NCBI GenBank assembly: GCA_019084245.1
Contig: JAHRFE010000040.1
Coordinates: 62,001-126,000 of the forward strand
Direction of reading: 5' to 3'
From: Hoeflea sp.
GTDB lineage: Bacteria > Pseudomonadota > Alphaproteobacteria > Rhizobiales > Rhizobiaceae
Length of the DNA: 64,000 nt
The notes below the pieces were generated by a model. It ran no database searches and had not been told where the DNA came from. It saw only the letters and a list, made by a program, of their open reading frames with translations. The position numbers and the translations under genes are program-made. Below, in pieces: positions 30,010 to 31,291 of this stretch; position 1 is the first letter of the stretch; the number at the start of each line of letters is the position of its first letter.

Positions 30010-30636
30010 TCAGGCTCGGCCCTGAGGGGTCACAACCGGCATCAGCGCGCCGTAGGGCGCGAGCATGGCGAGCCCGACGAGCAACTTGACGATCAGGTCG
30101 CCCAGCGCCCAGGACACCCAGCGTGGCGCTTCCATGGCGAACAGGCCCAGAAGCGGTGCCGCTTCGCTGGCAAAGGCGTCGCCCGGACCAATGGCGCCCG
30201 CAAATTGTGAAAAGGCGAGGCTGAAAAAGATCAGCGTGTCGAGGCTTGAGCCGATGACGGTGGAAGCCAGCGGCGGCAGCCACCATGTGCGATTGCGCAG
30301 CCGGTCGAAGATCGAGACATCGAGCAGCTGCGCCGCCAGGAACGCGGAGCCGGAGGCAACCGCGATGCGCGGCGTTGCCAGCCACACCGAAAGCGCCACG
30401 GCAACGATGAAGCCGCACAAGACCACCATGCGGGCGGTTGAGGGGCCAAAGCGGCGATTGGCAAGATCGGTGACCAGGAACGCCACCGGATAGGTGAACG
30501 CGCCCCAGGTCAGCAGGTCCGCCAGATTGAGCGTGCCGAGTGTGTAACCGACCGGAAACTGGACCAGGAAGTTCGATGCCACGACGACAGCGGCCATGAC
30601 GGCCATGAACGGCAAAAGGGGGAGGGTCATTCGCAT
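30010..30636 (-). CDS. Queuosine precursor transporter (YhhQ/VUT family)
   Basis: About 208 residues with six or more hydrophobic segments, matching COG1738 membrane proteins that import preQ0/preQ1 for queuosine modification of tRNA. Typical features are NLADLLTWGAFTYPVAFLVTDLANR and SSLDTLIFFSLAF. The ATG at 30634-30636 has AGGA seven bases upstream; a GTG at 30660 would lie inside the riboswitch-like element, so it is rejected. Convergent with the phytase-like gene. Its only likely transcript comes by read-through from rpmB. Confidence 0.9.
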   Translation of the reverse strand: MRMTLPLLPFMAVMAAVVVASNFLVQFPVGYTLGTLNLADLLTWGAFTYPVAFLVTDLANRRFGPSTARMVVLCGFIVAVALSVWLATPRIAVASGSAFLAAQLLDVSIFDRLRNRTWWLPPLASTVIGSSLDTLIFFSLAFSQFAGAIGPGDAFASEAAPLLGLFAMEAPRWVSWALGDLIVKLLVGLAMLAPYGALMPVVTPQGRA

Positions 30637-30663
30637 TTTTTTATCCTGGGTTGATGCCACCAG
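30633..30663 (-). ncRNA. preQ1-I-like riboswitch at the transporter start
   Basis: Read on the minus strand, CTGG (30660-30663) pairs with CCAG (30646-30649) to form P1. Loop bases GCAT (30554-equivalent positions 30554 aside, actual 30554 not used; 30554 replaced by 30554) are at 30554. Confidence 0.01.
30633..30663 (-). promoter_or_regulatory. preQ1-I riboswitch-like pseudoknot over the start codon
   Basis: Read on the minus strand, CTGG (30663-30660) pairs with CCAG (30649-30646) as P1. Loop bases GCAT (30657-30654) pair with ATGC (30636-30633) as P2, making an H-type pseudoknot. The A-rich linker GATAAAAAA is 9 nt, the P2-to-C linker CAA is 3 nt, and a lone C (30650) stands at the position of the preQ1-recognising cytosine, with T30659 at that of the conserved uridine. 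Lengths match the 34-nt Thermoanaerobacter preQ1-I aptamer as I recall it, except that P1 has four pairs. P2 includes the AUG and P1 includes half of AGGA, so ligand binding should block translation. Confidence 0.65.
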
Positions 30664-30665
30664 CG

Positions 30666-30695
30666 GAAAAAACGAAGGCGGGCCTGAAGCCCGCC
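30666..30695 (-). terminator. rpmB intrinsic terminator
   Basis: GGCGGGC and GCCCGCC form a perfect 7-bp stem with a 5-nt loop (30677-30695); on the minus strand it is followed by TTCGTTTTTT. It lies 28 nt after the rpmB stop codon and only 3 nt before the riboswitch-like element. Confidence 0.85.
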
Positions 30696-30723
30696 ATCAC
30701 AAAATAGAAGCGGTCGACCTAAA

Positions 30724-31020
30724 TCAGGCGACTGCTTTTTCGACGATCTTCTTGGCGATCTGCCGCTTGAGCAGGCGCGCGCGCATCGACAATTCACCAT
30801 CCTTGGCCTTTGCCAGAAACGCATCGAGGCCGCCACGATGTTCAACGGTACGCAGGGCGTTCGCGGAAATTCGCAGACGATAGCGCTGGCCGAGTGCATC
30901 GGAGATCAGCGTCACGTTGCACAGGTTCGGCAGAAACCGGCGACGGGTCCGGTTGTTGGCATGGCTGACATTGTTACCAGACTGAACAGCCTTACCGGTC
31001 AATTCACAGCTGCGGGACAT
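30724..31020 (-). CDS. rpmB: 50S ribosomal protein L28
   Basis: 98 residues, the usual size for alphaproteobacterial L28. It opens [23 protein letters not shown], with the conserved RRRFLPNL and [12 protein letters not shown] segments. Structural component of the large ribosomal subunit. The ATG at 31018-31020 matches the family start; longer in-frame starts are not conserved. A good promoter lies about 90 nt upstream and an intrinsic terminator follows. Confidence 0.98.
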
Positions 31021-31109
31021 TTTGCACCTATTATCTTTCGCCATCGGACGGGCCGAGCCAGATTTGAGGCTCACCCAAAGGACCGCAGGCCTTTATCGGA
31101 AGTCGCGTG

Positions 31110-31138
31110 TCTATAGTCAGACCAGCAAGCTGCGTCAA
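31110..31138 (-). promoter_or_regulatory. Predicted sigma-70-type promoter of rpmB
   Basis: On the minus strand TTGACG (31138-31133) is separated by 17 nt from TATAGA (31115-31110). This predicts a transcript start near 31103 and an 80-nt leader before rpmB. Confidence 0.6.
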
Positions 31139-31291
31139 GCGGGAAGGGCACGGAAACCGGTGAAAGTGCTGCTTCAGCCCTGACTCAGCCAAAAATTGGC
31201 ATCATGAGCATGGAAATGTCGCAATGTATGTCAAGCCTGAACCAGATCCTGCACCGCGATGAGCGCAAGTGCAAACCATTGAGGAATTCGC

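Follow-up and report, generated by a model that had tools for sequence, protein, structure and literature searches.

A pseudoknot that pairs the start codon of a queuosine-precursor transporter gene in Hoeflea and its relatives, probably a variant of the type III preQ1-I riboswitch

Why should the start codon of a transporter gene be one strand of an RNA helix, and could that helix belong to a sensor of a queuosine precursor? The question is raised by a 31-nt leader of Hoeflea sp. (contig JAHRFE010000040.1) within the 64,000-nt stretch of DNA analysed here, called the window. On the minus strand, positions 30663-30633 read CTGG UGGCAUCAAC CCAG GAUAAAAAA AUGC, with 4 bp in helix P1 and a second helix, P2, that includes the AUG (Table 1). 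The original prediction described this pseudoknot, with the AUG inside P2 and half of AGGA inside P1, as a preQ1-I-like element before a YhhQ/VUT transporter gene. The arrangement is confirmed by the sequence itself and by a covariance model match in most family genomes, and the transporter assignment agrees with protein models: the 208-aa ORF scored 94.4 bits with Pfam Vut_1 and 103.3 bits with TIGR00697 (queuosine precursor transporter; cut-off 50.95), but did not reach the threshold of NF008406, the model for the E. coli type (109.4 vs 252). The gene lies downstream of rpmB, and the same order is found in S. meliloti. No sigma-70-like promoter was found in 30600-31150. Perfect stems of at least 6 pairs occurred within 36-60 nt upstream of the element in 51 of 135 family genomes.

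Table 1. Features of the presumed aptamer and its surroundings in the window
Feature	Position	Strand	Remarks
Whole pseudoknot element, 31 nt	30633..30663	minus	presumed preQ1-I type III-like aptamer, Shine-Dalgarno through start codon
P1 5' strand CTGG	30660..30663	minus	pairs with 30646-30649
P1 3' strand CCAG	30646..30649	minus	ends in AG, shared with the AGGA Shine-Dalgarno as its first half
Loop UGGCAUCAAC, 10 nt	30659-30650	minus	sequence
U6 equivalent, first loop base	30659	minus	U in 135/135 family genomes
P2 5' strand GCAT (anti-start)	30654..30657	minus	pairs with ATGC 30636-30633
3-nt linker	30653-30651	minus	sequence
Specificity base C, in neither helix	30650	minus	aligns with C14 of the E. 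coli crystal construct
L3 GATAAAAAA, 9 nt	30637..30645	minus	A-rich crossing strand and Shine-Dalgarno-start codon spacer; sequence
Shine-Dalgarno AGGA	30644..30647	minus	AG half inside P1
VUT start codon ATG, P2 3' strand	30634..30636	minus	ATG in 135/135 family genomes
+4 base C, fourth P2 pair	30633	minus	first base of codon 2; covariation with loop base 8
VUT/YhhQ-family queuosine precursor transporter, 208 aa	30010..30636	minus	Vut_1 and TIGR00697 matches
Terminator-like hairpin behind rpmB	30677..30695	minus	T-run to 30667, three bases before P1

The element is widespread in the family. A covariance model, R1, was built from 19 training rows including the window, its near kin and the E. 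coli leader, and its E-values flatter the window and its near kin, which were among those rows. At E ≤ 0.01, 135 of the 151 family genomes had an R1 match, always a single one, and every match sat at the VUT start (82 judged via the full gene, 53 of 53 via coordinates). The single match in the window's genome had an E-value of 2.8e-8, and the next stood at 5.59 (150 of 2122 candidates scored). According to a protein profile search, the VUT gene is present in 143 of the 151 genomes; eight carry it without an R1 match, and their leaders were read. A strict pattern applied to 111 loci found the element in 90, with named relatives from Hoeflea, Rhizobium, Agrobacterium, Sinorhizobium, Mesorhizobium and others, and missed it in 21, mostly from Roseibium, Stappia, Devosia, Cohaesibacter and other non-Rhizobiaceae groups, and also in L073 of the Rhizobiaceae group. 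Columns of the element carried 0.85-2.0 bits of information each, against 0-0.6 bits for those of the flanks (24 nt upstream, 21 nt after the ATG), so that conservation ends sharply on both sides.

Other targets were sought across the class in 385 genomes, under strict filters and with 17 candidates scored in each; 22 genomes gave a match at E ≤ 0.1. The 17 of 21 foreign loci that were read (all except L142, L146, L147 and L149) held no element at a VUT gene and no convincing copy elsewhere. The best foreign match, in genome G730 (E 0.0013), was rejected, as it has no CAU and precedes what we take to be a PP-loop gene. L131 was also set aside: it has CTGG/CCAG and UUCCAU, but G replaces the specificity C, and no long ORF follows.

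Conservation at a start codon could reflect the needs of translation initiation only, the pairing being incidental. AGGA, the A-run and ATG, which form the right half of the element, are the signals that strong initiation calls for, and the nested fold of the leader showed no excess stability over shuffles (z = 0.51, a calculation in which the pseudoknot is not computable). However, CAU in the loop and the C that precedes CCAG, which are not initiation signals, were constant in 135 of 135 genomes, as was U6, these being bases that the loop parser demanded (T, [GT], [GC], CAT, C at the end and P1 without mismatch; none of the 135 R1 matches failed it, and R1 itself was trained on rows of such form). 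Furthermore, the base after the AUG tracks a loop base, three genomes retain an AUG that is out of frame, and the loop equals that of the E. coli preQ1 element save for one compensated base, all of which are described below. We therefore regard a mere initiation region as very improbable. Other positions were also strongly conserved: A precedes the specificity C in 120 of 135 genomes (C in 10, U in 5; the window has AC), L3 is GAT plus six A in 106, G stands immediately 3' of P1 in 131, and AAUG occurs in all 135. The loop is 9 nt long in 129 and 10 nt long in 6, including the window.

Within the family, the loop covaries with the second codon. When loop bases 7-8 are GG, the base after the AUG is C (54/54), and when they are GC, it is G (12/12), so in the GG and GC types P2 reaches into codon 2 with a fourth pair, G-C in the one and C-G in the other. 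When they are UC (n=69), that base is A in 31, C in 24, U in 14 and G in none. The window is of the GG type with a 10-nt loop, as are 4 of the 135 in all. A quick VUT tree of 90 rows was scored on the 82 that carry the element: the GC label changed 7 times, +4 = G 7 times and GG 4 times, and within the UC type the base after the AUG changed 14 times, never to G. The well-supported branches left two independent pairs per label, none in the wrong direction (sign test, p 0.5), a number with which this test cannot reach significance; repeated coupled change of the loop base and the +4 base is likely, not proven.

Compensatory changes among orthologous leaders, whose absence was to refute the original prediction, were found in both helices. 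We compared 25 distinct composites from the family and other classes of the phylum, in which 91% of cells pair. Changes on both sides occurred in 24 cells against 7.2 in shuffles (0/500 as high), and the score was 0.325 against 0.082 in shuffles and at most 0.028 with slid partners, which are the better control, related rows inflating such counts. Among the same composites, two of the five measures, double-change pairs (4 vs 3.5 in shuffles, 265/500 as high) and further pair types (7 vs 6.0, 170/500 as high), showed no excess, and the fourth P2 pair was unpaired in 17 of 25. P1 is nearly invariant inside the family, which counts against our best explanation: it is CTGG/CCAG in 134 of 135 genomes and CCGG/CCGG in one, the sole compensatory P1 change of the family set. 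The remaining support for P1 comes from comparison with other classes, where its sequence differs and the pairing is kept. The genome with the changed P1 (G005, locus L151) also has a long N-terminal extension of VUT, with the element still at an in-frame ATG.

The closest known relative is the leader of E. coli yhhQ, a proven preQ1 riboswitch of class I type III (PMC10622847). Members of this subclass bind preQ1 one to one with nanomolar affinity. The yhhQ leader reads UUGGG UUCCCUCAC CCCAA, a linker and AAAAAGG. The UC-type rhizobial loop is UUCCAUCAC followed by AAUG (45/135), against UUCCCUCAC followed by AAGG in E. coli, and the sole difference between the loops is base 10 (A vs C), whose partner is U vs G. 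A single compensatory pair, C-G to A-U, is the change that would convert a locked Shine-Dalgarno sequence into a locked start codon. The published structure of the E. coli element has the pairs C9-G30, C10-G29 and U11-A28; C14 reads preQ1, A27 of the Shine-Dalgarno sequence touches it, and U7 and C8 take part in triples with the ligand and in the ceiling. Contacts of preQ1 with uridines of L1 are seen in known structures (PMC10622847).

To follow base 10 across the phylum, a pattern with all loop bases fixed except positions 10 and 12, and with the position-10 partner limited to G or U, was applied to 398 genomes and matched in 68. It found 71 places, of which 30 were taken as loci, and the reversed pattern matched 12 times. 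Twenty-six of the 30 loci precede a yhhQ/VUT gene, and in all 26 position 10 agrees with its partner (A-U in 10, C-G in 16). The A-U loci are all from the window's family and the C-G loci from other classes of the phylum, so this split runs between one family and all others and may reflect no more than one event. The four loci without yhhQ had A/G, C/G twice and U/G, with 2-3 pairs in P1 vs 3-6 in the 26. Among the records used, NZ_OL790696.1 (L124) is a 4.8-Mb E. coli record filed as a plasmid, and it looks like a mislabelled chromosome.

The rhizobial element and type III (PMC10622847) share the target gene family (yhhQ/COG1738), the 9-nt loop (in 129 of the 135 relatives; the window has 10 nt), U6 and the specificity C, the A-rich L3, and an H-type pseudoknot with a translation signal as the P2 3' strand. 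In contrast, the rhizobial P2 buries the AUG (AAUG) instead of AAGG, the Shine-Dalgarno sequence is shifted into P1 and L3, L3 is short and equals the spacer between Shine-Dalgarno and AUG, and the window further differs in GG for U7C8, in the extension of P2 by a fourth pair with codon 2, and in the 10-nt loop. Measured against the type III consensus, the window has the specificity C in an AC motif before the P1 3' strand, the location before yhhQ/COG1738, and the 4-5 conserved adenines before P2 (at least 5 A before the ATG in 135/135). It has UG in place of UU beside the P1 5' strand (UU in 69/135), and its P2 3' strand is not the AAGG Shine-Dalgarno, so strict type III membership fails on these two consensus features. 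The preQ1-I-like class proposed at the outset is thus supported by pairing, covariation and position before VUT, with the qualification that the closest relative is the type III subclass and not the types modelled in Rfam. The RNA element is real and conserved, and it is very likely a type III preQ1-I riboswitch in a version that pairs the start codon.

The fold could also be kept while the ligand has changed, the GG and GC subtypes with a remodelled pocket ceiling sensing preQ0, queuine or a guanine-like base. The window has G in place of both U7 and C8, the triple-forming bases of E. coli (PMC10622847), and its pocket may differ from the E. coli one; COG1738 proteins have been suggested to split by substrate (PMC5372724). 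The specificity C, U6 and the A-run are nevertheless unchanged, and the window's genome, with queA and without a queF match, suggests that preQ1 is the substrate it can use; we consider another ligand unlikely. We think it very likely that these sequences form an OFF riboswitch acting on translation, with a 7-deazaguanine queuosine precursor as its ligand, preQ1 being the foremost candidate, and with P2 built from the start codon instead of the Shine-Dalgarno sequence.

We infer the ligand, the pocket geometry and the direction of control as follows. Without ligand, the short P1 and P2 would be weak, AGGA and AUG would be accessible, and VUT would be translated. With ligand, the unpaired C at 30650 would pair with its Watson-Crick face, and U6 at 30659 and the A-run would contact its other edge. 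P1 would then hold the AG of AGGA, and the A-run spacer would lie along its groove; the AUG and the next base would be hidden in P2, shutting off import. The whole ribosome-binding site (Shine-Dalgarno, spacer, AUG and first base of codon 2) would be folded into the 31-nt presumed aptamer.

A start codon in such a position would also be a structural strand, and its frame gives a view of this second role. The paired AUG shares the reading frame of VUT in 132 of 135 genomes (79/82 via the full gene, 53/53 via coordinates). In three family genomes (L293, L295, L296) and the named locus L108, it is kept out of frame with VUT; there, the P1 Shine-Dalgarno CCAGG has become CCAGC, and the P2 strand is AUGGA, whose GGA, as judged by eye, lies eight bases ahead of an in-frame ATG further downstream (in L295, the second of two ATGs). 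The GGA of AUGGA may be the working Shine-Dalgarno sequence in these four. Since the AUG is kept out of frame, the P2 helix appears to outlive its start-codon role, and its 3' strand seems to alternate between start codon and Shine-Dalgarno sequence. By analogy with the E. coli structure, on whose alignment the placement rests, we lean towards a view in which the AUG sits in the ligand pocket: its A would correspond to A28 in the ceiling and the preceding base to A27, which reads the ligand edge; the spacer would double as L3, codon 2 would be under selection for pairing in the RNA, a move of the riboswitch between Shine-Dalgarno and start-codon locking would take one compensated pair change, and the out-of-frame AUGGA lineages would be living intermediates. 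AAGG, AUGGA and AAUG form a natural series in which to study how an expression platform may shift while the pocket stays.

The neighbourhood of rpmB, both in the window and in S. meliloti, could instead suggest a protein-binding site or an intrinsic attenuator, for example a translational operator tied to that gene. We know of no L28 operator with such a loop. A near-identical loop stands before E. coli yhhQ, where it is a proven riboswitch (PMC10622847), and also in other classes, which makes this explanation the least credible of those considered.

How does the element relate to other preQ1 riboswitches? The Rfam family for class I, PreQ1 RF00522, had no match at the site at its cut-off of 39 bits, and gave the UC-type relative L111 11.5 bits. 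It also missed the E. coli type III element, our positive control, and was therefore rejected as a test of membership. Over 299 phylum genomes, RF00522 produced 10 matches at E ≤ 0.05, 3 of them over the cut-off and none in the window's family; in the window's genome, it gave two weak matches elsewhere. The Tte preQ1 riboswitch has a 10-nt loop, as has the window element, and the type II loops (Tte, Bsu) differ in sequence from the rhizobial one. Class I type II shares with our element the single-ligand H-type pseudoknot and the AC before the P1 3' strand, and is described in the passages cited from PMC11625349 as acting by partial Shine-Dalgarno occlusion or transcription termination, with no start-codon pairing mentioned there.

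Type III has been described as almost exclusively gammaproteobacterial (PMC10622847) or as almost exclusively found in Pseudomonadota (PMC11625349), and the presumed version reported here, missed by Rfam, spans the window's family. The passages compared from PMC3766115, PMC10570037, PMC5372724, PMC9495176 and PMC4448311 mention no rhizobial or start-codon-pairing preQ1 element. A list of 15 pathogens with preQ1 riboswitches in PMC9495176 names no alphaproteobacterium and omits E. coli as well. Control of yhhQ by preQ1 riboswitches in different bacteria is noted in PMC5372724, which refers to RegPrecise.

Finally, the queuosine genes of the Hoeflea genome fit an importer of this kind. Both tgt (484 bits) and queA (368.5 bits) are present, queF had no match, and queC gave weak partial matches alone, all under the cut-off; the same searches for queF and queC were positive in E. 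coli. The genome therefore probably depends on precursor salvage, importing preQ1 via VUT, and its organism is a likely queuosine auxotroph; an importer under feedback from its own substrate is consistent with this picture. In this genome queA and tgt are adjacent (contig C30:18237-20425). Across the family, a queC match at E ≤ 1e-20 was found in 46 of 151 genomes, so salvage may be common; the gene occurred in 6 of 8 genomes without VUT, 40 of 143 with VUT and 38 of 135 with the element. With the presumed control, regulation of queuosine-precursor salvage would become open to experiment in these bacteria.

Several small genomes depart from this arrangement. In G006, G091 and G111 (L162, L165 and L167; 1.1-1.5 Mb), VUT is kept and the element is decayed or absent; none had a queC match over the cut-off, and G006 and G091, which had no queA match either, perhaps live by queuine salvage. 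The 1.2-Mb genome G093, in which the element is absent, carries queC.
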